DNA of 64,000 bases. It comes from Archangium primigenium. GTDB taxonomy: Bacteria; Myxococcota; Myxococcia; Myxococcales; Myxococcaceae. Numbering within the stretch: position 1 is the stretch's first letter; each line of letters begins with the position of its first letter. The translations under genes were made by a program, and so were the position numbers. Below are positions 45,788 through 59,085 of this stretch, in pieces. The notes beneath the pieces were generated by a model, which did not search any database, was not told the origin of the DNA, and saw nothing but the letters and a program-made list of their open reading frames with translations. The DNA is taken from contig NZ_JADWYI010000001.1 of assembly GCF_016904885.1 (NCBI RefSeq), forward strand, positions 3,906,001-3,970,000, in the 5' to 3' direction.

Positions 45788-48361
45788 GTGCGACGCCTTC
45801 CCATCTCCTCCACCGGCCTGCGCTTCCTGCAGCGGCTCGCCTACTCCCTGCTCCAGGCCACGCTCTTCGGCACCATCCTCGGCGTGCTCGTCTACTTCCG
45901 CCCGCCCCGCGCTCAGCCGTCCGAGGGCGCCGCGCCCGTCACGCTGCTGTCCCGCCCCGCCGCGGGCCTGGAGTCCTGGGAGCGCCTCACCTACGACGGC
46001 CGGGTGCGCGCGGTGGGGGCGCGGGCCTCGCGCTCGGATCGGGTGGTGGTGGTGGCGCTCGACGACGAGACGCTCACCGAGGCCCGGCAGGACGACCACG
46101 CGGGGGTCTCCTCCTACCCCTGGCCCCGGGAGATGCTCGGCGGCATGACACAGCGGCTGCTCGACGAGGGCGCCGAGCAGGTGCTCATCGATCTGCCCTT
46201 CGCCGAGCTGAGCCCCCGGGCCTGCTTCGCGCCGGGCGCGAGTGGGGCCTCGGGCCTGGACGATGACCGGGCGCTGCGGGCGCTGCTCGACCGGGTGCCC
46301 CAGAAGTCCGTGCTGGCCTTCGACTGGTCTCCGGACCGGGGCATTCCGCCGGGCAGCCGGCTGTGGCCCTACCGCGTGCGGCTCGGGGTGTTCGCGACCG
46401 AGGCCGCCGCGCGGGCCCGCATGCGCACGGTGCTGTCGGACCAGCGCCCCGTGTTCCTCATCCCCGAGGGCAAGGGGGTGGAGGTGTGGGGCGGCGTGGC
46501 GAGCGAGCAGGAGGGGCAGCGGGTGGCGCTGGAGCTGGGCGTGCGCGAGCCGCCGCGTGTCCTGGAGCGCCGCACGAGCGACGACGCGTTCCGGGTGGGG
46601 CCGCAGGAGCTGTTCGTCTCGCTCGCCGCGGTGCGGGTGGAGGGCCTGGACGTGTCGCGGCTGGAGGAGGTGCGGCAGCTCGAGCACCCCGTGGCGCCGC
46701 TGCTCGGCGAGGCGAGCCTCTATGGGGCCGTCACCCTGCCGGCGGACTCGGACGGCATCGTGCGCGCGGTGCCGCACCTGGTGAGCTACCGCGGCCAGGG
46801 GGACACCCGCCACGTGCTGCCGTCCATGCCGCTGGTGGCGGCGATGCGCCAGGCGAACACCCGGACGCTGCGCTACGCCGAGGGCCGGCTGTACGTGGGG
46901 GACCGCTTCTCCATCCCCATGGACGCGTCCGGCTACAGCCTGGTGCGCTGGGACGCGGCGGAGGTCGGGCGGGGCGCGCGGGGCTCGGTGGCGCGCGCCA
47001 TCCCCGCGTGGAAGGTGCTGCTCAACGTCTTCGCGGTGCGCGAGGGCGTGCCGCCCCGGGGCGTGCACGACATCGACGGCCGGCTCGTGGTCCTCACCAA
47101 CACCTCGCGCCGGGCCCTGGACTTCCAGCACACGCCCATCGGCGAGCGCACGCCCTCGGGCGCCATCCTCGCGCAGTCGCTGGTGAACCTGCTCCAGTCC
47201 GAGGGCATCTCCCGCGCCACGCCCCGGGAGGACCTGGCGCTCACGCTCGGCATGGCGCTGCTCGGGGCCTTCGTGGCGCTCACCGTCAACCGGGGGCTGC
47301 GCTCCTCGGGGGACATCTTCTTCTACCTCTTCACCATGGCGGTGGTGGGCGCGCTCTACATGGCGGGCGCCTGGTACGTCTTCGTCACCCGGCTCTTGTG
47401 GGTGGCACTGGTGGGGCCCGTGCTGGCCATGGGGCTCACGTTCCTCTTCACCATCGTGCAGGCCTCGCGCTCCGAGCAGCAGCTGCGCCGCTTCGTCACG
47501 GACGTGCTCGGCCGCTACGTGAACCCCGAGGTGGCCCGGCTCGTCACGCGCGATCTGCGGCAGCTCACGCGGCCGGAGTTGCGCGAGGTGACGGTGTTCT
47601 TCTGCGACCTGGACGGCTTCTCGCGCCTGTCCTCGGAGCTGCCGCCCGAGCGGCTCGTGCAGTTCCTCAACGACTACCTGACGGAGGTGACGGACGTGGT
47701 GCGCGCCACGCGCGGCCAGGTGGACAAGTACATGGGGGACGCGGTGATGGCCTTCTGGGGCGCCCCCGTGCGCACCGAGCGCCATGCGCACCTGGCCTGC
47801 GACGCCGCGCTCAAGGTGCGCGCCGTGCTGCTCGCGCGCCAGGAGCACTGGAGCAAGACGTACGGCCACACGCCCCAGTGCCGCGTGGGCATCGACAGCG
47901 GCGAGGTGCTGGTGGGCGGCATGGGCAGCGACCTCGAGGCGAAATACTCCGTGCTGGGCCAGTCGGTGAAGTTCTCCATGTACCTGGAGGGCCTCAACCG
48001 GCACTTCGGCACCTTCGTGCTGGTGGGCGACGGGGTCGCGCGGCTCGCGCAGGACGGCTTCGTCTTCCGCGAGGTGGACCGGGTGCGGCCCAGCGGGCGC
48101 ACCCAGGCCACGCGCCTGCACGAGCTGATGGGCCGCAAGGGCGAGCTGGACGCGCGCGTCCAGGAGCTGCTGTCCATCCACGAGCAGGCGCTCACCACGT
48201 ACCACCAGCGGCGCTTCGACGTGGCGCTGGCGCTGTTCCTCCGGGGCGTGGAGGAGTTCCAGGATCCCCTGGCCCAGGTGTATGCCGAGCGCTGCCGCGC
48301 CTACCTCCGGACCATGCCGCCCGAGGACTGGGACGGCGTGTTCGCGCTGGAGGGCGCCTGA
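45788..48361 (+). CDS. CHASE2-domain class III adenylate/guanylate cyclase
   Basis: 857 aa from a GTG. One N-terminal membrane helix (about 12-35), an extracytoplasmic CHASE2 sensor (about 60-460; RSDRVVVVALDDETL at its start), three membrane helices (about 488-565) and a cyclase domain (about 595-770). Metal-binding Asps are in VFFCDLDGFSRLSSEL and the second metal/substrate block is QVDKYMGDAVMAFWGAP. LGQSVKFSMYLEGLNR aligns with the transition-state Asn/Arg region. The ATP/GTP-choosing residues cannot be read with certainty. A short C-terminal helical tail has TPR-like character. It senses a periplasmic signal and makes a cyclic nucleotide. Confidence 0.92.
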   Translation: MRRLPISSTGLRFLQRLAYSLLQATLFGTILGVLVYFRPPRAQPSEGAAPVTLLSRPAAGLESWERLTYDGRVRAVGARASRSDRVVVVALDDETLTEARQDDHAGVSSYPWPREMLGGMTQRLLDEGAEQVLIDLPFAELSPRACFAPGASGASGLDDDRALRALLDRVPQKSVLAFDWSPDRGIPPGSRLWPYRVRLGVFATEAAARARMRTVLSDQRPVFLIPEGKGVEVWGGVASEQEGQRVALELGVREPPRVLERRTSDDAFRVGPQELFVSLAAVRVEGLDVSRLEEVRQLEHPVAPLLGEASLYGAVTLPADSDGIVRAVPHLVSYRGQGDTRHVLPSMPLVAAMRQANTRTLRYAEGRLYVGDRFSIPMDASGYSLVRWDAAEVGRGARGSVARAIPAWKVLLNVFAVREGVPPRGVHDIDGRLVVLTNTSRRALDFQHTPIGERTPSGAILAQSLVNLLQSEGISRATPREDLALTLGMALLGAFVALTVNRGLRSSGDIFFYLFTMAVVGALYMAGAWYVFVTRLLWVALVGPVLAMGLTFLFTIVQASRSEQQLRRFVTDVLGRYVNPEVARLVTRDLRQLTRPELREVTVFFCDLDGFSRLSSELPPERLVQFLNDYLTEVTDVVRATRGQVDKYMGDAVMAFWGAPVRTERHAHLACDAALKVRAVLLARQEHWSKTYGHTPQCRVGIDSGEVLVGGMGSDLEAKYSVLGQSVKFSMYLEGLNRHFGTFVLVGDGVARLAQDGFVFREVDRVRPSGRTQATRLHELMGRKGELDARVQELLSIHEQALTTYHQRRFDVALALFLRGVEEFQDPLAQVYAERCRAYLRTMPPEDWDGVFALEGA

Positions 48362-48371
48362 GCGGCGGCGG

Positions 48372-48731
48372 CTAGTCCTCGGCTTCCTCGGGGTGGCCGA
48401 GCAGCTCGACGACGGGCGTGTCCTGGGAGACGTGCTCGGCCACCACGCGCCGCATCTTCTCCGGCGTCATGTGCGAGTAGTACGCCTCGCCCTCCCAGCC
48501 CATGAGTTGGTAGTCCTCGGGGGAGAGCGGATCGCGCTTGCGGCCCGTCTCCTCGCGCAGCACGACGTTGGGCCCCATGTGGCAGAAGCCATAACAGCCG
48601 CCGCGGTACAGCTCGCAGCGCGGCACGAGGCCCCGCGTGGACAGCTCCTCGCGCGCGGCCTGGGCCACGGCATCCGAGCCCCCGGCCTTGCAGCTCGAGC
48701 CCTTGCAGACGGACAGGCGGTAGCGCTTCAT
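48372..48731 (-). CDS. Thioredoxin-like 2Fe-2S ferredoxin
   Basis: 119 aa. The Cys pattern VCKGSSCKAGG and CELYRGGCYGFCHMGPNV (C-x4-C ... C-x3-C) is that of thioredoxin-fold 2Fe-2S ferredoxins, related to the NuoE/24-kDa subunit of complex I. An electron carrier or a subunit of a larger dehydrogenase is possible. It lies downstream of nuoI on the same strand but has its own TAGGGT promoter. It is too short for a full NuoE, which needs an extra N-terminal helical domain. Confidence 0.85.
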   Translation of the reverse strand: MKRYRLSVCKGSSCKAGGSDAVAQAAREELSTRGLVPRCELYRGGCYGFCHMGPNVVLREETGRKRDPLSPEDYQLMGWEGEAYYSHMTPEKMRRVVAEHVSQDTPVVELLGHPEEAED

Positions 48732-48740
48732 CGCGGGCAA

Positions 48741-48769
48741 ACCCTACGGAGTTTGAGGCGGACTGCAAA
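48741..48769 (-). promoter_or_regulatory. Promoter of the ferredoxin gene
   Basis: On the minus strand: TTTGCA (48764-48769), 17 bases, TAGGGT (48741-48746). The ATG at 48731 follows within nine bases, so a nearly leaderless mRNA is expected. Confidence 0.45.
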
Positions 48770-48891
48770 GGGCCTCGCGGGCGGAGCGGGCCCGTCCTCT
48801 TCCTCGCCCACGTCTGGGGCCCCAACGACATCGGCCCGCCTTCCCCGTGGGTTACACGGAGGGGCGGGCCGAGCGCGGACACCGGGCGCGA

Positions 48892-49593
48892 CTACTTGAT
48901 GAACTTCGTCACCGGCACCGGCCCGTCGTGCGAGACGATGGCCCGGGAGTGCGAGTGCTCCTCCTCGCCGATGCGCGTGTGGGCTTCCTTGTGCGCGTGG
49001 GCGGGCGGCTCGGAGCTCGAGCGCTTGTTCCAGGGATCCGACGGGTGCGACACCGCGGGGCCCTTGAGCAGCCGGGGGATGTCGTACACGAACCCCTGCC
49101 GGTTGTACTCCGGCGGCGTGTGCGTGTAGGTGTCCATGCGGATGGCGTCCTTGGGGCACGCCTCCACGCACAGGCCGCACACGATGCAGCGCAGCTCGTC
49201 GATGACGAACTGGGTCGGGTACTTCTCGATGACGCGCGACTCCTTCTCGTCCGCGCCCGGCGCGTACTCGCCCGCCTCGATGTAGATGCACTGGGCCGGG
49301 CAGATGGTGGCGCACATGTAACAGGCCACGCAGCGCGGCTTGCCGTCGTCCCGCGGCACCAGGCGGTGCAGCCCGCGGTAGCCCGGCGGGTAGGGAATCT
49401 TCTCCTCGGGGTACTGCACCGTGGTGACGAGGCTGGTGCCGGTGCGCTCCTCGAAGGGGGTCTTCGTGTCGCGCGTGCCGAAGAGGTTGCGCCAGAAGTG
49501 GCGCGTGGTGATGGCCAACCCGCGGAGGAGCTCCGGCAGGTAGGCGCGCTCGCGTACGTCGGTACGGGGGTCTTGGGTCGCCTTGTAAGCCAT
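48892..49593 (-). CDS. nuoI: NADH-quinone oxidoreductase subunit I
   Basis: 233 aa. Carries the two 4Fe-4S clusters that link the hydrophilic arm of complex I to quinone. [15 protein letters not shown] and [15 protein letters not shown] give all eight Cys. An extra tail of about 60 residues follows the conserved part, ending in a His-rich stretch ([19 protein letters not shown]) not found in E. coli NuoI (180 aa). Last of the nuoCDGHI run, 23 bases after nuoH. Confidence 0.96.
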
Positions 49594-49616
49594 GGTGTCT
49601 TTCTCGTCGCTCCGAC

Positions 49617-51068
<1,452 letters not shown>

Positions 51069-51070
51069 TG

Positions 51071-52939
51071 TCAGAGACCTCGGACCCTGGGAGCGCCGAA
51101 CTCACGGTAGCCCGGGGGCCGGCCGTCGGCGGCGGCGGCCAGAGGGTTGATGCCGGGCTTCTCCCGGTCGGGCGGGGCGGCCTTGTCCCAGTCGAACGAC
51201 ACGAACTCGGGCACGCCCTTGCTCAGCTCGCGGAAGGCCTCGCGCGAGGTCGTCCAGGCGGCGCTGCCGCCCATCTGCCGGGTGAGCTCGGCGGCGAGCG
51301 CCCAGTGCCCCACGGCCTCGCCCTTGGAGGGGTAGGCCTTGCGGAAGCGCTGGATGTGGCCGTCCACCTGCACGAACGAGCCATCCGCCTCCACGTGCGC
51401 GGAGGCCGGCAGGAGCACGGTGGCCTGCGCGGTGAGGGCCGACTCGTTCGTCGCCTGGGCCACGAACACGTCGAGCTGGGCCGCCGCCTGGGCGAAGGCC
51501 TCCACGTCCCCGGGCACCTCGGTGCCCACGGCGTAGAGCGCCTTCACCTTGCCGCTGGCGAGGCCCTTGATGAGCTCCTCGAACGGCTTGAGCGCGAGCC
51601 CCAGGCCCTGGGCGATGAGCTCCAGGCCCTTGCGGTTGGGGTTCCTGTCCGCGGTCAGCAGGAAGTGATCCGCCTGACCCTCGGGCCGGCCGCCCACGTA
51701 CACCTCGCGCGCGCCCAGCGTGCCCTTGGCGAAGGTGAGCGCGGCGAGCAGATCCTCGTTGGAGGCCACCGGGGAGGCGAGCACCGCGAGGCCCTTGCCC
51801 TTGGCGCCCGTGAGCTCACGCGCCGCGGTCTGGAGGGCTTCCTGACGCGCCACCTCGGGACGGGCGGTGCCCCCCTGCTGGCGGCCCACCACGGCGCTGA
51901 GCACGCGGCCCAGGTTGAGCCCCTTGTAGGTGAGGCGGCCGTGGTCGCACAGCCAGCTCTTGTTGATGGCCTCGTTCTCGCGCGGCCGGTAGCGGTAGGT
52001 CTCCTGCCCCATGAAGTCCGCGTACGTGTTGCAGCCGCGCGAGCAGCCCGTGCACACGGACGGCGCGGCGGACTGGAACCACGAGCGGGCACGGAAGCGG
52101 TAGTCGCGGCTGAGCAGCGCGCCCACCGGGCAGATGTCCACCGTGTTGAGCGAGTAGTTGCTGTCCAGCTCGCTGCCGGGGAACGTGTCGATGACCTCGT
52201 GGCTGCCACGGCCGAAGATGCCCAGCTGCGGCTCCTTGGGCACCTCGTTCATGAAGCGCACGCAGCGGCTGCACAGGATGCAGCGCTCCTGGTCCAGCAC
52301 CACGCGGGGCCCGAGCACCTTGCGCTTGTTCTTGAGGATCTTCCCGCCCTCCAGACGCGAGGGGCGGTAGTCGTAGCGCATGTAGTAATCCTGCAGCTTG
52401 CACTCACCGGCCTGGTCGCAGATGGAGCAATCCACCGGGTGGTTGAGCAGCAGGAACTCCATCACCGCGCGCTGCTGCTCCTTGACCTTGGGCGTGGTGG
52501 TCTTGATGACCTGGCCCTCGGCGAGCGGCGTCTGGCACGCGGGCACCATCTTGGGGGCGTTGGACGCCTCCACGAAGCACATGCGGCAGTTGGCCGCGAT
52601 GGACAGGCGCGGGTGGTAGCAGAAGTAGGGGATGATCGAGCCGACCGAGCGCGCCGCCTCGATCATGTTGGTGCCCGGCTTGGCGATGACTTCCTTGCCG
52701 TCGATCGTGCAGGTGACGAAGCCCGGGTTCTTGGGCGGCGGCGGGGCGGGCTTGGCCGCGGGCGGCGGAGGCGCGGGCGGGGTGGGGCTGCTGTGCGCGG
52801 CCGGAGGCGCGTCCAGCTTGGGGCCCGCGGGCGGGTTGGACGGCTCGGGGCCAATCTTCGCCGCCGGCGTGTCCGTGGGCGCGCCCTTGGGGGGCGGCTG
52901 CGCGTCACCCGAGGGCTTCTTGGTGTCGTTGTCGCTCAC
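51071..52939 (-). CDS. nuoG: NADH-quinone oxidoreductase subunit G, short form
   Basis: 622 aa against 908 in E. coli. The 2Fe-2S domain (VTCTIDGKEVIAKPGTNM ... CYHPRLSIAANCRMC), the His-Cys3 cluster (HPVDCSICDQAGEC) and the two-cluster ferredoxin region (CILCSRCVRF ... CPVGALLS) are complete. A further CTGCSRGC block follows. The molybdopterin-like C-terminal half is much reduced. The first 70 residues are an unusual Pro/Ala-rich extension. The ATG overlaps the nuoD stop (ATGA). Confidence 0.95.
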   Translation of the reverse strand: MSDNDTKKPSGDAQPPPKGAPTDTPAAKIGPEPSNPPAGPKLDAPPAAHSSPTPPAPPPPAAKPAPPPPKNPGFVTCTIDGKEVIAKPGTNMIEAARSVGSIIPYFCYHPRLSIAANCRMCFVEASNAPKMVPACQTPLAEGQVIKTTTPKVKEQQRAVMEFLLLNHPVDCSICDQAGECKLQDYYMRYDYRPSRLEGGKILKNKRKVLGPRVVLDQERCILCSRCVRFMNEVPKEPQLGIFGRGSHEVIDTFPGSELDSNYSLNTVDICPVGALLSRDYRFRARSWFQSAAPSVCTGCSRGCNTYADFMGQETYRYRPRENEAINKSWLCDHGRLTYKGLNLGRVLSAVVGRQQGGTARPEVARQEALQTAARELTGAKGKGLAVLASPVASNEDLLAALTFAKGTLGAREVYVGGRPEGQADHFLLTADRNPNRKGLELIAQGLGLALKPFEELIKGLASGKVKALYAVGTEVPGDVEAFAQAAAQLDVFVAQATNESALTAQATVLLPASAHVEADGSFVQVDGHIQRFRKAYPSKGEAVGHWALAAELTRQMGGSAAWTTSREAFRELSKGVPEFVSFDWDKAAPPDREKPGINPLAAAADGRPPGYREFGAPRVRGL

Positions 52940-54201
52940 TGCTCGACCTCGCCGCCGATCATGTTGATCGTGTCAAAGGTGGGAATGAGGTCCGCCAAGA
53001 GGCCGCCCTTCACGATGGCGGGCATGGCGGACAGGATGGGGAAGCCGGGGGCGCGCACGTGGACCTTGTAGGGCCGGCCGCCGCCGTCGCTCACGATGTA
53101 CCAGCCGAGCTCGCCGTTGGCCGACTCGGTCGCGTCGTACACCTCGCCGGGGGGCACCTGGATGCCCTCCATCACCAGCTTGAAGTGCGAGATGACGCCC
53201 TCGATGGTGCCGTAGACCTCGGGCTTGGGCGGCAGGGCGATGCGCCAGTCGTTCACGATGATGGGCCCGTCGGGGATCTTCGCCAGCGCCTGGCGGAGGA
53301 TCCGGTCCGACTGCTTCATCTCCTCGATGCGCATGAGGTAGCGGTCGTAGTTGTCGCCGTGCTCGCCAATGGGCACGTCGAAGTCGAGCTGGTCGTAGAC
53401 CCAGTAGGGGCGGGCCTTGCGCAGGTCGTAGTCCACGCCGCACGCGCGCAGGCACGGCCCCGTCCAGCCCCAGTCGAGCGCGTCGTCCGCGGAGATGACG
53501 CCCGTGCCCTTCATGCGGTCCACGAAGATGCGGTTGCGCGACAGGAGCGACTCGCACTCCAGGGCCAGCTCGCGGATCTTGTCGAGCGACTTGAGCGTCT
53601 TGCCGATCCAGCCCTCGGGCAGGTCGCGGTTGAGGCCGCCCACGCGCCCGAAGCTCGTCGTCAGGCGCGCGCCGGTGAGCTCCGCCACGCGATCATTGAT
53701 GAGCTCGCGCGCCTCCATGCCGAAGAGGAACGGGGCGAAGCCACCCAGCTCCATGCTCGTCGCGGCGACGCACGTGAGGTGATCGTGGATGCGGTGCAGC
53801 TCCGAGCCGATCACGCGCACGTACTGGGCGCGCTCGGGGATCTCCAGCCCGATGAGCTTCTCCACGGCGGTGAGGAAGCCGAAGTTGTTCATCAGCGGGG
53901 ACGCGTAGTTGAGCCGGTCCGTATAGGGCAGGCACTGCGTCCAGGTGACGTTCTCGCAGCTCTTCTGGAAGCCGCGGTGCAGGAAGCCGATCTCGCAGTC
54001 GGCGTCCGAGATGGTCTCGCCCTCCAGGTGCAGCTTCAGGCGCACCGTGCCGTGGGTGGCCGGGTGAGAGGGGCCCATGTTGATGTACATGGGCTTGGCC
54101 TGCAGATGCGCCTCCAGCTCCGACTCCTGGGCGTAGGAATCGGTGTCCGGGTTGGGCACGTCGGGGCTGGGATGGACTGCGGGCTTGTGGGTGTCCGCCA
54201 T
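52936..54201 (-). CDS. nuoD: NADH-quinone oxidoreductase subunit D
   Basis: 421 aa, the 49-kDa subunit that lines the quinone site together with NuoB. MGPSHPATHGTVRLKL, EIGFLHRGFQKSCEN and GRVGGLNRDLPEGW are conserved signatures. It is separate from NuoC, not fused as in E. coli. A 35-residue N-terminal extension precedes the conserved part. It begins 31 bases after nuoC. Confidence 0.97.
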   Translation of the reverse strand: MADTHKPAVHPSPDVPNPDTDSYAQESELEAHLQAKPMYINMGPSHPATHGTVRLKLHLEGETISDADCEIGFLHRGFQKSCENVTWTQCLPYTDRLNYASPLMNNFGFLTAVEKLIGLEIPERAQYVRVIGSELHRIHDHLTCVAATSMELGGFAPFLFGMEARELINDRVAELTGARLTTSFGRVGGLNRDLPEGWIGKTLKSLDKIRELALECESLLSRNRIFVDRMKGTGVISADDALDWGWTGPCLRACGVDYDLRKARPYWVYDQLDFDVPIGEHGDNYDRYLMRIEEMKQSDRILRQALAKIPDGPIIVNDWRIALPPKPEVYGTIEGVISHFKLVMEGIQVPPGEVYDATESANGELGWYIVSDGGGRPYKVHVRAPGFPILSAMPAIVKGGLLADLIPTFDTINMIGGEVEQ

Positions 54202-54232
54202 GATGTCCTCGAGTGGGCGTGGGCCGGGCGCG

Positions 54233-54757
54233 TCAGGAGACGCCGCTCGTGCCGGGGCCGCGGAAGATGTCCTTGATGGGGCGCTCGGGAATGAGCGGCT
54301 GCCGGTCGCGCAGCGCGTAGTCCTTGCGCAGGGGGTGGCCCTGGAACTCCTCGTAGAGCAACACGCGGCGCAGGTCCGGGTGTCCCGAGAAGCGGATGCC
54401 GTAGAAGTCCCACACGAAGCGCTCCCACCAGTTGGCGCCCTTGAACAGGGACGTCAGCGAGGGAATCTCCTGGGTCTCGTTCACGCGCACCTTGAGCCGC
54501 ACGTGCTCGCCGCGCGTGAGGGAGCGCAGGAAGTAGACGACCTCGAAGCGCGGATCGTTCTCCGCCAGGTGGAGCCGGTCCACCCCGTCGATCGAGATGA
54601 AGAGCTTGAAGTCCAACTCGCTCTTGAGGAAGGCGGCGACCTTGGGCAGGTGCTCGGCGTGAATGACGGCCCAGGCGCCGCCCGTGCGGTCGAAATACCG
54701 CTCCGCCACCGCCTCCGGAAATTGGGCGGTGACCCTGTCGAGTGCGAAGGTGCTCAA
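54233..54757 (-). CDS. nuoC: NADH-quinone oxidoreductase subunit C
   Basis: 174 aa from a TTG start; no ATG or GTG is available nearby, and GAGG lies six bases upstream. The 30-kDa subunit of the peripheral arm. RFVWDFYGIRFSGHPDLRRVLLYEEFQGHPLRKDY is the family signature. A strong promoter and inverted repeat lie in the 86 bases upstream, so it begins its own transcription unit despite following the cyclase gene. Confidence 0.95.
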   Translation of the reverse strand: MSTFALDRVTAQFPEAVAERYFDRTGGAWAVIHAEHLPKVAAFLKSELDFKLFISIDGVDRLHLAENDPRFEVVYFLRSLTRGEHVRLKVRVNETQEIPSLTSLFKGANWWERFVWDFYGIRFSGHPDLRRVLLYEEFQGHPLRKDYALRDRQPLIPERPIKDIFRGPGTSGVS

Positions 54758-54772
54758 GGGGAGCCTCGATGC

Positions 54773-54837
54773 TGGCTAGGGAATCCGGGGCGTTATAAGG
54801 ACGCGCCTTGGGGGGCGTCAACGGAATCCCTTAGCCA
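54773..54837. promoter_or_regulatory. Inverted repeat framing the nuoC promoter
   Basis: TGGCTAGGGAATCCG (54773-54787) mirrors CGGAATCCCTTAGCCA (54822-54837), with one mismatch and one inserted base. One arm touches the -35 box and the other covers the transcription start. A regulator bound to both would bracket the promoter. Confidence 0.6.
54793..54821 (-). promoter_or_regulatory. Internal promoter of nuoCDGHI
   Basis: On the minus strand: TTGACG (54816-54821), exactly 17 bases, TTATAA (54793-54798). This is the best sigma-70-like promoter in the window. The leader to the TTG at 54757 would be about 29 bases. Confidence 0.75.
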
Positions 54838-54843
54838 TCCCCG

Positions 54844-56211
54844 CTACTTACGCGAGTCAGAAGACGGTGTCCGCCCCAAGGGGGGCAGGTCGGCGCCGTC
54901 CGTGCTTCCCCTCCGGCCGTGCGAGAGGGGCCGGGGAATGAATGTGCTCACCGGTTCACGCTTGCCCGCCACGGGCGTGGGGGGCAGCTCCTGCCACTGG
55001 CAGCAGTCCCCGGCCCGCTCCCGGGTCTCCTTGGAGACGAGCACCGGGGTGCGGTGGCGCTTGGTGAGCTGCTCGATGCGGTTGGCCAGGTTCACCGTGT
55101 CCCCGATGGCGGTGTACTCCAGGCGGCGGGCCGTGGAGCCGATGTTGCCGAGCACCACGTGGCCCGTGTGCAGGCCCACCCCCATGAGCAGCCCCGGCTC
55201 GCCCCGGGCGAAGCGCTCGGCGTTCATCTCCCCGAGCTCGTGGATCATGTCCAGGGCGCACTCCACCGCGCGGCGGGGATGGTCCGGCTCGGCCAGAGGG
55301 GCGCCGAAGTACACCATCAGGGCGTCCCCGATGAACTTGTCGAGCGTGCCCCCGTGGCGGAACACCACCTCCACCATGCGGCCGTAGTACTCGTTGAGGA
55401 TGGCCACCACGGCCTCGGGGCTCAGCCGCTCGCTCAGGGCGGTGAAGTCGCGCAGGTCCGTGAACAGGACCGTCACCTCGCGCAGCTCGGGGGTGGCGGC
55501 GGGGGAGGCCAGGTCCTGCAGCCGCTCGGCGACGGCCGGGGAGAAGTAGCGCCCGAGCTGGGCGCGCTTGAGCTCCTCGCGCGTCAGGGCGGAGACGAGC
55601 ACGCGGATGCGGTGGAAGAGGTAGTGCGAGGCGCCCGCCGTGAGGCTCAGCACCACCACGGCGACCACCCGCGCGCCCATGCCGATGCCCGCCTCCACCT
55701 GGAGGGCGACCTCGGCCACGGCCGCCACCGAGGCGACCGTGAAGGTCACCGGCCGGCGCATGGAGAGCGCGGAGAGGACGATGATGAACGCGTACAGCCC
55801 GAGCGTGAAGCCCGCCACCCCCCCCGGCGAGGGAGAGACCGGCAGGGCCAGGTGCTGCAGCCAGTAGATGGCGGGCACGTCCACCACCGCCAGGGACACC
55901 CCCGCCCAGCTCGCCATGAGCGGCCAGCGCAGCACGCACACGTACGTCACCACCGTGCACAACCAGTAGGCGGCGAAGGGGGCGAGGTACACCCGCCAGT
56001 CCGACAGGCCCTGCACCAGACCGAGGTACGCGGTCACGAGCAGCACGAGCGACACCCCGCCCAGCCGCATCTGCGTGAGCCGGAGGGTGTTGTACTGCCG
56101 CTCGGCTTCCAGGGCACGGCCCACCGGCTCGTGCAGGAAGGTGGCGTTCGGGATGGGGCTCTGCCCGGCCTCGTCCACATGACCTCGGTGGTGGGAAGGA
56201 GGGGGTTGCAT
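54844..56211 (-). CDS. Membrane-bound class III adenylate/guanylate cyclase inside the nuo cluster
   Basis: 455 aa. Residues about 50-205 contain five or six membrane helices, without a recognised sensor name. The cyclase domain is about 240-415, with [16 protein letters not shown] (metal Asps) and [18 protein letters not shown], then [26 protein letters not shown] for substrate and transition state. All catalytic positions look intact. I chose the ATG at 56211 because a longer start at 56310 would lie within the terminator hairpin at 56258-56302. A low-complexity tail follows. The gene separates nuoB from nuoC and has a terminator before it and a promoter after it. Its own promoter is not evident. 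Confidence 0.93.
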
Positions 56212-56257
56212 CCTCTCACGTCGGCGCGAGGCGCGCACCTTCGTGGCGGGTGGCCCC

Positions 56258-56302
56258 AAAAGCGAGGGCCCCGCCGTCTCCGTGAGGAGACGCACGGGGC
56301 CC
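56258..56302 (-). terminator. Intrinsic terminator after nuoAB
   Basis: On the minus strand GGGCCCCG and CGTCTCC pair with GGAGACG and CGGGGCCC (56266-56302) around the loop TCAC, with only a two/one-base bulge, giving 15 base pairs. CTCGCTTTT follows, so a T tract is present. It lies between the nuoB stop and the cyclase start. Confidence 0.8.
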
Positions 56303-56322
56303 GGGGCCACGCACGCGCGGAA

Positions 56323-56880
56323 CTACTTGCGCAAGCCGTAGGTCCCGGCGAGCAGGTCGTGCGGCGCGGTGCCGGCATGGCCGATGCGGTGCGTCTGGCT
56401 GCCGATCTTGTCCTGCAGCAGCCGCAGTCCGTCGAGCACCTGCTCGGGACGGGGCGGGCAGCCGGGGATGTAGACGTCCACCGGGATGATGCGGTCGATG
56501 CCCTGGAGCACCGCGTAGTTGTCGTAGAAGCCGCCCGAGGAGGCACACACCCCGAAGGCCACCACCCACTTGGGCTCGCACATCTGCTCGTACACGCGCT
56601 TGAGGATGGGCGCCTGCTTGAGGTTGATGGTGCCGATCACCATCAGCATGTCCGCCTGGCGCGGCGAGAAGCGGGGGAACTCGGCGCCGAAGCGCGCGAT
56701 GTCGTGGCGCGCGGAGGACAGCGACATGAACTCCATGCCGCAGCACGCCGTGGCGTACGGGTAGGTGAACAGCGAGTACTTGCGCGCCCAGCCCAGGCCC
56801 TTGGAGATCTTCTCCGCGAAGAAGCCCATGGCGTCCTCGCGGCGGGTCGTCAGAACCGGAACGTTATCGTAGTCAGCCAT
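56323..56880 (-). CDS. nuoB: NADH-quinone oxidoreductase subunit B
   Basis: 185 aa. Holds cluster N2, the last Fe-S centre before quinone. [23 protein letters not shown] gives the tandem Cys pair, and [13 protein letters not shown] and [16 protein letters not shown] give the other two Cys ligands. Begins six bases after nuoA. Nothing unusual. Confidence 0.98.
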
Positions 56881-56886
56881 GTGTCC

Positions 56887-57270
56887 TCAGTGCTCCCACT
56901 CCAAAGCGCCCTTCTTCCAGATGTAGATAAGGCCCACCACCAGGGTCGCCGCGAAAACGACCATTTCGGTGTAGCCAAACCAGCCGAGTGCTTGGAAGTT
57001 GACCGCCCAGGGATACAGGAAGACCGCCTCGACGTCGAACACGATGAAGAGCAGCGCCACCACGTAGAACTTCACCGCGAAGCGCTGGCGCGCCGTGCCG
57101 CTGCTCTCCGAGCCCGCCTCGAAGGGCGCGGACTTGATGGCGCTCGGCCGCTTGGGGCCCGCCAGGGCGGCCATTTGCACGATGACGAGCGCCAGCACGC
57201 CCGCCAGCAGCAGCACCACGGCCAGCGGCAGGTAGGGGCTCAGGGGGTTGGGATCGATCGCGGGATTCAT
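56887..57270 (-). CDS. nuoA: NADH-quinone oxidoreductase subunit A
   Basis: 127 aa from the ATG at 57270. A GTG seven codons upstream lies beyond the -10 box and cannot be on the mRNA if that promoter is right. Three membrane helices. ESSGTARQRFAVKFYVVALLFIVFDVEAVFLYPWAV is the family signature with the conserved Asp/Glu. First gene of nuoAB. Confidence 0.95.
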   Translation of the reverse strand: MNPAIDPNPLSPYLPLAVVLLLAGVLALVIVQMAALAGPKRPSAIKSAPFEAGSESSGTARQRFAVKFYVVALLFIVFDVEAVFLYPWAVNFQALGWFGYTEMVVFAATLVVGLIYIWKKGALEWEH

Positions 57271-57278
57271 CGCGGCGG

Positions 57279-57317
57279 ACCCTAGGGACACCCGGACGGG
57301 GTGTCAATGACGAATCC
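57279..57317 (-). promoter_or_regulatory. nuoA promoter with upstream GGATTC site
   Basis: On the minus strand: TTGACA (57302-57307), exactly 17 bases, TAGGGT (57279-57284). Transcription would start about two bases before the ATG at 57270. GGATTC (57312-57317) lies four bases upstream of the -35, as at the nuoC promoter. Confidence 0.7.
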
Positions 57318-57407
57318 GGATCGCCAACCCCTGGACATGACAGCGGAAAGTCCTCCGCGCCCCCCGGCGGTCCCCCCCGGCGTGCGAGGGGGCATCCACC
57401 AGGGGGT

Positions 57408-57437
57408 TTGACGCTCCAAGCACCCGGGGCCTAGGGT
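57408..57437 (+). promoter_or_regulatory. Promoter of the chemoreceptor gene
   Basis: TTGACG (57408-57413), 18 bases, TAGGGT (57432-57437). The leader to the ATG at 57484 is about 40 bases and contains GGAG. Confidence 0.55.
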
Positions 57438-57483
57438 CTCTTCCCGACGCGTCGTGCGATCAGACAGGAGTGGCGCCGGAGAC

Positions 57484-59085
57484 ATGTGGGGTCGGTTGAG
57501 TCTTCGCTGGCAGGTAGCGTTCGCGGTGCTGGTCCCCAGCCTCGCCGTCGCGCTGTTCTGCGGGTTCTATTTTCCCAAGCAGCAGTGGAACCAGGGCCTG
57601 CGTCGGCTCGAGGAAAGCGCGCATGATCGGGGTCTGCTCGGCACGCGGCAGATCGAGCTGCTGTTCGAGCAGGGACACGCGCCGCCCGCGCCGCCCCTGG
57701 TGAACGTGGTGCCGCTCGTGCCGCCCCGGGATCTGGGGGCGCACGTGCTCAAGCGGTTGCCGGACGTCTTCGAGTCCATGGATGGCACCGCGGACGTGGC
57801 CTTCCAGGCGGTGCTCGGCCCCGAGGGCGAGGTGATCGCCGAGCGGGGAGAGCCTCCCCGGGGGCTGCGCGGCCTGTCCAAGGAGGGCCCGGGCTGCTCG
57901 GTGCGCCGCGTGCACGATCATCCGGTCGCCTTCTGCGGGCTGCCCGGCGGACACACCTACGTGGTGGGCATGGAGACGGCCCGGGTGAAGGCGGAGGCGG
58001 AGGCCCTGCGGGGCACCACGCTGTTCGTCTTCCTGGGCGCCCTGCTCGTGGGGCTCTTCCTGTCCTTCTTCATCGGCCGGGCCATCGCCGAGCCCGTGAC
58101 GCGCATGACCCAGGCGGCGCGCGAGGTGGCCCAGGGCGACATGTCCCTGAGCGAGGTGGACGTGGCGTCCGCGGGCGAGGTGCGCATGATGGCGTACTCG
58201 TTCAACGAGATGCTCGGCACGCTGCGCGGCACCGTGTCCGAGCTCCTCACGCGCCTGGAGCAGCTGTCCAGCGCGTCGCGGGGCCTGTCGGGCGCCTCGG
58301 CGGACCAGGAGCACGTCATCAACCAGCAGGCCGCGTACGCCCAGCAGATCGCCGCCACCTTCGAGGAGCTCAGCCGCACCGCGGAGCAGATCTCCAGTTC
58401 CACGGAGGTGGTGGAGTCCAGCGCGCGGCGCACCCACGAGGCGGTGGCCGAGGCCATGGCCGTGGTGGCCCAGGTGGTCGCGGGCATCAACGACATCCGC
58501 ATGGAGTCCAAGGGCGTGGCCGACGCCATCGTGGGCCTCAACCAGGACCTGCAGCAGGTGTCGAAGATCGCCCAGGTCATCAACCAGGTCGCCGAGCGCT
58601 CGGACCTGCTCGCGCTCAACGCCGCGCTGGAGGGCACCAAGGCGGGCGAGGTGGGCCGGGGCTTCTCGCTGGTGGCCGCGGAGATGCGCAAGCTCGCCGA
58701 GAGCGTGTCCGCCTCGGCGCGGGACATCGCGCGCATCGTGGAGAAGGTGCAGGACTCCGGCAACGAGGCGGCCAGCAAGGCGCGCGTGGGCATGGCCACG
58801 AGCGACCGGGGCGTGGAGGTGGCCGAGCAGGCCTCGTCCGTGTTCCAGCGGATCGTGGAGCTGGCGCGCGGCACGAGCGAGGCCGCGCGGCAGATCACCA
58901 TCGCCACGCGCCAGCAGCGTCAGTCCAGCGAGCAGGCCGTGCAGGGCGCGCGCAACGTGGCGGAGCTGGTGAAGCAGGGCGTGGACGCCACGGGCCGCAC
59001 CACCCGCATCGCGCAGGATCTGCAGAGCGTGGCCGACAGCCTCACCGTGCTCACCAGCAAGTTCAAGGTGGCGCGCGACCGCTGA
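57484..59085 (+). CDS. Methyl-accepting chemotaxis protein
   Basis: 533 aa. Membrane helix one at about 10-29, an extracytoplasmic sensor of about 145 residues with no family I recognise (it contains a Cys pair, CSVRRVHDHPVAFCG), and membrane helix two at about 178-198. A HAMP linker follows (PVTRMTQAAREVAQGDMSL), then a long signalling coiled coil. The hairpin tip ERSDLLALNAALEGTKAGEVGRGF varies from the usual EQTNLLALNAAIEAARAGE, having Gly-Thr-Lys for Ala-Ala-Arg. No CheA, CheW or CheR gene is adjacent; the CheB-like protein lies 50 kb away. It is divergent from nuoA. Confidence 0.94.
   Translation: MWGRLSLRWQVAFAVLVPSLAVALFCGFYFPKQQWNQGLRRLEESAHDRGLLGTRQIELLFEQGHAPPAPPLVNVVPLVPPRDLGAHVLKRLPDVFESMDGTADVAFQAVLGPEGEVIAERGEPPRGLRGLSKEGPGCSVRRVHDHPVAFCGLPGGHTYVVGMETARVKAEAEALRGTTLFVFLGALLVGLFLSFFIGRAIAEPVTRMTQAAREVAQGDMSLSEVDVASAGEVRMMAYSFNEMLGTLRGTVSELLTRLEQLSSASRGLSGASADQEHVINQQAAYAQQIAATFEELSRTAEQISSSTEVVESSARRTHEAVAEAMAVVAQVVAGINDIRMESKGVADAIVGLNQDLQQVSKIAQVINQVAERSDLLALNAALEGTKAGEVGRGFSLVAAEMRKLAESVSASARDIARIVEKVQDSGNEAASKARVGMATSDRGVEVAEQASSVFQRIVELARGTSEAARQITIATRQQRQSSEQAVQGARNVAELVKQGVDATGRTTRIAQDLQSVADSLTVLTSKFKVARDR

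Follow-up and report, generated by a model that had tools for sequence, protein, structure and literature searches.

A predicted membrane adenylate cyclase gene, probably transcribed on its own, in an old gap between the complex I genes of a myxobacterium

The 64-kb stretch of DNA analyzed here, which we call the window, carries genes of respiratory complex I on its minus strand. The nuo order starts with nuoA (57291 to 56887) and continues with nuoB (56880 to 56323; PF01058), both of which have orthologues in relatives and form a separate upstream unit (56323 to 57291). Next on this strand are a probable intrinsic terminator of the nuoAB unit, composed of a hairpin and a short T tract (56258 to 56302), a gene for a membrane class III adenylate cyclase (54844 to 56178), and a σ70-like promoter (54792 to 54821). 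The downstream unit (48372 to 54757), whose gene order is conserved, contains nuoC (54757 to 54233; PF00329), nuoD, nuoG, nuoH, nuoI and, after nuoI, a gene for a small 2Fe-2S protein (PF01257). Convergent to it on the plus strand is a second class III cyclase gene, which encodes a CHASE2 sensor (45788 to 48361; PF05226 and PF00211). The minus-strand order from nuoA to nuoI had been read from the letters alone in an initial annotation and was borne out by the gene calls and Pfam matches in the window. An Rfam search of positions 54500 to 57500 produced no match at the gathering score.

The initial annotation also assumed that complex I genes are normally contiguous. This does not hold in the family to which the window belongs, where the nuoB/nuoC junction is broken in relatives. 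The nuoF and nuoJ genes of the window genome were found near 8.80 Mb (G000:C1:8803872-8805556; loci L108 and L109), about 4.8 Mb from the locus, and complex I of this genome is encoded at at least two places. Given the remote nuoF and nuoJ and the gap between nuoB and nuoC in relatives, the locus is not a complete operon that a single gene has split.

The cyclase had a single Pfam match, to PF00211 (E = 1e-27; 97.4 bits against a cut-off of 21.9), a family with 19 matches in the window genome. Its residues D241, K281, D285, T356, N363, and R367 were invariant in 38 of 38 homologues. We take D241 and D285 to be the metal aspartates and N363 and R367 to be the transition-state residues of class III cyclases, and K281 and T356 presumably are the positions that specify adenine (Lys and Asp/Thr), i.e., ATP rather than GTP. 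All the catalytic residues of an adenylate cyclase are present, and the predicted substrate is ATP. The dN/dS ratio over the whole gene was below 1 in all nine cyclase pairs (0.08 to 0.51). Together with the invariance of the catalytic positions, this suggests that genomes which retain the gene also use it.

In the AlphaFold2 model of the full protein (mean pLDDT of 87.8), six membrane helices, the sixth of which runs into a linker, precede a class III catalytic domain. The helices are predicted at residues 10-55, 65-84, 86-111, 118-139, 142-162, and 167-211, and the membrane domain modeled alone had a pLDDT of 87.5. By sequence, this domain alone matched nothing in the PDB at E ≤ 1, and Foldseek found nothing for it at E ≤ 0.001. 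Its model aligned structurally with Pseudomonas aeruginosa ImcA (Z = 13.2), AC9 (Z = 13.0), AC5, AC8, and Rv1625c (Z = 9.6), at Z scores that chance helical bundles also reach. The invariant membrane residues R38, D100, and P102 are common to paralogues that are not located beside nuo and, therefore, do not single out a complex I-specific sensor.

The initial annotation had placed an intact membrane cyclase gene at positions 54844 to 56211. The gene is there, but its start is most likely the GTG at 56178, which yields a protein of 444 amino acids, rather than the ATG at 56211. The choice follows from an in-frame TAA in the Archangium orthologue L087, located between the codons that match the two candidate starts, and from the GAGG that precedes the GTG in the window. 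Ahead of this GTG, all nine genomes of the subclade comprising the window and Archangium have kept a GTG(C/A)GAG(G/A)ATG motif. No clear promoter of the cyclase gene was found in the window species or Archangium.

The hairpin after nuoB extends from 56302 to 56266 and is followed by TCGCTTTT down to 56258. It had been described as a 15-bp terminator with a T tract; a terminator-like hairpin is indeed found at this place, but 16 base pairs make up the stem that precedes the T tract, and the tract itself consists of only four Ts. The 86-nt stretch with the hairpin folded at -56.5 kcal/mol (z = -5.05, with 0 of 200 shuffles as low), in a fold that also pairs bases past the T tract. Among the 6,394 60-nt segments (step of 10) of the window's minus strand, the best one at the hairpin ranked second in folding strength. 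A stock promoter and terminator scanner, whose rules demand a T as the last base of the -10 box and at least five Ts in the eight bases after a stem, reported neither this hairpin nor the promoter of nuoC. A looser signal scan, with window-wide counts and conservation in relatives, was used in its place.

To follow the locus through related bacteria, the nuo, cyclase, thioesterase, sulfatase, chemoreceptor (MCP), and CHASE2 cyclase genes were mapped on loci of 42 other genomes chosen from 116. A tree of nuoA to nuoD was built for 41 genomes, leaving out G016 and G086 because their nuoB and nuoC do not lie on one stretch. Thirty-two genomes, including that of the window, made up a core clade in this tree, and 27 of them have the cyclase at the site. 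Nine more genomes (L099 to L107), whose retrieved nuo stretches have nuoB or nuoC but not both, were left unclassed; among these, no cyclase match was found before nuoC in L102 and L103 (several kilobases) or L100 (474 bases). Loci L077 (G013) and L086 (G044) carry a second, divergent nuo set (nuoA to nuoD, in L086 also nuoH) head to head with the first. The nuo region of L067 is myxobacterial although its public record is labeled Comamonas sp. KCTC 72670, a label that looks wrong.

The hairpin was kept in 31 of the 32 core genomes, including all five that have no cyclase. It was missing in G070, where the cyclase locus is present. Outside the core clade, the hairpin was found in G016; G014 and G027 have other strong stems, and no stem like it was detected in G029, G026, G023, G013, and G035. 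The hairpin alignment (A2) comprised 34 of 36 references, with L048 (from G027, a different hairpin) and L091 (from G070, no such hairpin) left out. Covariation in it was weak: the eight outer pairs can form in 269 of 272 cells and hardly vary, and double changes occurred in 2 of 11 predicted pairs. Thus, the case for the hairpin rests on its conservation and stability.

The promoter before nuoC consists of TTGACG (54821 to 54816) and, after an 18-nt spacer, TATAAC; it can also be read with a 17-nt spacer and TTATAA, as in the initial annotation. No other 10-of-12 promoter match occurs on the window's minus strand; the plus strand has one. TTGACG and TATAA were identical in 36 of 36 aligned loci (alignment A3), and TTGAC and TATAA were present in all 32 core genomes, window included, 5 of which are without the cyclase. 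Eleven further genomes of the family have the nuoC stretch: six of them (G016, G027, G014, G013, G086, and G020) have both boxes, and five (G029, G026, G023, G061, and G018) have only TTGAC. G035, G039, and G044, which belong to other families, had neither box before nuoC. Since both the hairpin and the promoter are kept in all five cyclase-less core genomes, the two signals exist independently of the cyclase. We infer that the hairpin ends transcription and that the promoter-like site starts it.

Upstream of the promoter and overlapping the 3' end of the cyclase gene is an element (54822 to 54863; CTTCT, TAAGT, and GATGG..GGG) whose columns are nearly invariant in A3. TAAGT was found in 31 of the 32 core genomes (it is missing in G006), and the element was also present in four of the five core genomes without the cyclase. 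It is a possible activator site. Consensus folding of the region upstream of nuoC gave no convincing helix (-1.75 kcal/mol) and, therefore, no RNA element is claimed there. Transcripts of the cyclase gene may continue into nuoC; an intervening terminator was sought by the stock scan only.

In the commonest gene order, an MCP gene diverges from nuoAB, thioesterase and sulfatase genes on the opposite strand fill the nuoB/nuoC gap, and the cyclase gene, nuoCDGHI with the 2Fe-2S gene, and the convergent CHASE2 cyclase gene follow. The thioesterase is kept and the sulfatase gone in G001 to G003, which belong to the genus of the window; both are gone from the window and from five genomes of genus g8 (G010, G030, G069, G075, and G081). 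These arrangements suggest that the hairpin originally ended nuoAB against the convergent thioesterase gene and then stayed after the thioesterase was lost. The terminator and the promoter were kept in relatives with the thioesterase and sulfatase, in those with the cyclase alone beside nuoB, and in those without the cyclase, which upholds the earlier statement that the cyclase need not be cotranscribed with nuo. In G016 (L039 and L082), about 40 kb lie between the cyclase and nuoC, whose promoter is intact; by eye, this stretch includes an open reading frame resembling a nonribosomal peptide synthetase.

As the T tract is short, transcription of nuoAB may run on into the cyclase gene, above all in the window species and Archangium, for which no clear cyclase promoter was found. 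In these genomes, most cyclase expression might come from read-through at a leaky nuoAB terminator, the region upstream of the cyclase having been altered by the loss of the thioesterase and sulfatase, and its level would passively follow that of nuoAB. The T tract of four and a nuoB-to-cyclase spacing of only ~110 to 180 bp would suit such an arrangement. However, the hairpin is very stable, and the GTG(C/A)GAG(G/A)ATG motif is intact throughout the nine subclade genomes, as expected if a start signal remains. We consider read-through as the main source of expression somewhat unlikely.

The nuoB/nuoC gap itself is old. It measures at least 370 bp in all 38 family genomes of the nuoA-to-nuoD tree (window included) and contains other genes in many of them; in G029, G026, G023, and G013, it spans 3 to 11 kb without this cyclase. 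The outgroups G039 and G044, with nuoB and nuoC 8 and 62 bp apart, would fit a mobile cyclase gene that recently entered an unbroken nuo operon. This reading is extremely improbable in view of the family-wide gap and of the cyclase phylogeny: in a tree of 69 homologues, all but one of the 40 nuo-linked rows grouped in one clade (support, 100/100), with branching that follows the species groups. The proposal that the cyclase came into the complex I operon by insertion or recruitment finds only partial support; in this family, the nuoB/nuoC junction is broken in any case.

A cyclase orthologue with at least 58% identity was found in 30 of the 116 genomes. All 30 adjoin nuoC or, in G016, sit on the nuoAB side. 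For more distant relatives at 46 to 51% (G004, G005, G008, G015, G020, and G035), the stretches examined gave no nuo match, and the G027 cyclase (43%) precedes nuoC. The latter is the fortieth nuo-linked row and forms a long branch; a topology uniting all 40 in one clade was not rejected (p-AU = 0.35), and independent recruitment is, therefore, not claimed.

The five core genomes without the cyclase are G006, G062, G011, and the neighbors G025 and G079 (loci L068, L069, L071, L072, and L073). If the cyclase was gained once, it would have been lost four times in the core clade; the placement of G011 is not firmly supported (87/89), and the G006 genome is fragmented and 86% complete. In G062, a remnant of the cyclase gene's end (58 codons against L088 and 39 against L035) is left between an intact hairpin and an intact promoter, so the gene was lost there and not absent from the outset.

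The MCP gene beside nuoA was kept in 31 of the 32 core genomes (not in G011), compared with 27 for the cyclase. By this measure, the cyclase is tied to its place beside nuo no more strongly than the MCP and CHASE2 neighbors are to theirs, and its position, thus, is not special evidence of function. The CHASE2 cyclase was found downstream in 29 of the 32; the remaining three hold 0, 1,426, and 1,455 downstream bases.

We think it likely that the gene encodes a one-polypeptide class III adenylate cyclase with six transmembrane helices (6TM; the Rv1625c type) and forms a transcription unit of its own in an old gap between separately transcribed parts of complex I, its place reflecting inherited synteny. 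It is probably an old and separately transcribed neighbor of nuo that some relatives do without. The protein would dimerize into a homodimer and make cAMP from ATP; the 6TM bundle, perhaps with a lipid or an ion, could bias the linker helix and modulate catalysis, as proposed for Rv1625c. The place beside nuo would be inherited synteny at a site of gene turnover and would imply no regulatory tie to respiration. Our confidence is slightly reduced by G070, which has no hairpin, and by the near orthologues, which never occur away from nuo. A functional link would explain equally well why these are always beside nuo and why the G027 cyclase precedes nuoC.

Such a link could mean that the 6TM domain reads membrane or quinone state, that cAMP adjusts respiration or development, and that the linkage is selected. 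It would agree with the presence of the cyclase at the site in 27 of the 32 core genomes and in the distant G027, with the nuo-side location of all 30 near orthologues, with the bracketing of nuoC to nuoI by two class III cyclases, and with the ability of a 6TM cyclase anchor to serve as a receptor, as described for Rv1625c and fatty acids (PMC12505454). Against it, the five core genomes without the cyclase, one of them by deletion, have kept the nuo signals, nuoC has a separate promoter, the MCP neighbor is better kept, and the invariant membrane residues recur in paralogues away from nuo. In addition, of the CRP-like palindromes in the 200 bases ahead of nuoC, the best one agreed with the consensus at 7 of 10 bases in the window and at 5 to 7 in the other genomes, as raw match counts. 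A selected tie to complex I is, on balance, improbable. We also regard as very doubtful the narrower idea that the 6TM cyclase upstream and the CHASE2 cyclase downstream have bracketed nuoC to nuoI from the origin of the core clade onward because the 6TM enzyme reports membrane lipid or quinone state as cAMP.

The sequence signals argue against cotranscription of the cyclase with nuo, and the insulation on its flanks argues against shared expression. Recruitment that ties cyclic-nucleotide output to nuo expression, as the initial annotation had suggested, fits poorly with a break and a nuoC promoter that also occur in cyclase-less relatives, with a cyclase missing from 5 of 32 core genomes, and with a place kept no better than that of the MCP. 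Relatives without the cyclase and with unchanged nuo expression had been named as evidence against that proposal; such relatives exist as far as gene content is concerned. The initial annotation had also suggested that the multi-helix N terminus might sense quinone or membrane state; the membrane domain is similar to adenylate cyclase membrane domains in general. No result here supports control of respiration by the cyclase, or the reverse.

The role of the 6TM domains of adenylate cyclases is described as an open question (PMC12414865), and a conserved genomic neighbor could have hinted at a 6TM ligand. The present comparison suggests that the neighborhood is inherited and dispensable, and nuo therefore provides no hint of a ligand without experiments. 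The naturally cyclase-less loci, above all the scar in G062, are ready comparisons.

Literature searches on cyclases with nuo and on myxobacterial cyclases revealed no description of this locus among the matches listed, which consisted of titles and abstract openings, with subscription journals mostly outside. CyaA of Stigmatella aurantiaca is a myxobacterial cyclase with a hydrophobic multi-helix N terminus and may be an orthologue or a paralogue. The catalytic domain resembles those of P. aeruginosa CyaB (3r5g; Z = 27.5), Cya2 (2w01), and CyaC of S. platensis (1wc1), with Z scores of 26.3 to 27.5 and 33 to 39% identity, whereas the N-terminal modules of these three proteins differ from that of the cyclase. 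Mammalian AC5, AC8, and AC9 resemble the membrane-domain model (Z = 10.6 to 13.0 over 190 to 202 residues) but have 12 transmembrane helices and two catalytic domains, and their membrane domains are only 8 to 15% identical to that of the cyclase.

Rv1625c/Cya of Mycobacterium tuberculosis, like the cyclase, has one 6TM domain, a helical linker, and one catalytic domain per chain. The full-length proteins matched in Foldseek (7yzk; E = 4.2e-13, TM-score of 0.47, rmsd of 9.6), and the membrane-domain model matched 7yzk with Z = 9.6, with no sequence match of the membrane domain alone. Unlike Rv1625c, the cyclase has Thr at the second substrate position, which we take to be the class IIIb type. 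The activity of Rv1625c is described as being affected by an acidic extracellular pocket (PMC9433096) and by C18 mono-unsaturated fatty acids, such that its 6TM anchor can act as a receptor (PMC12505454).
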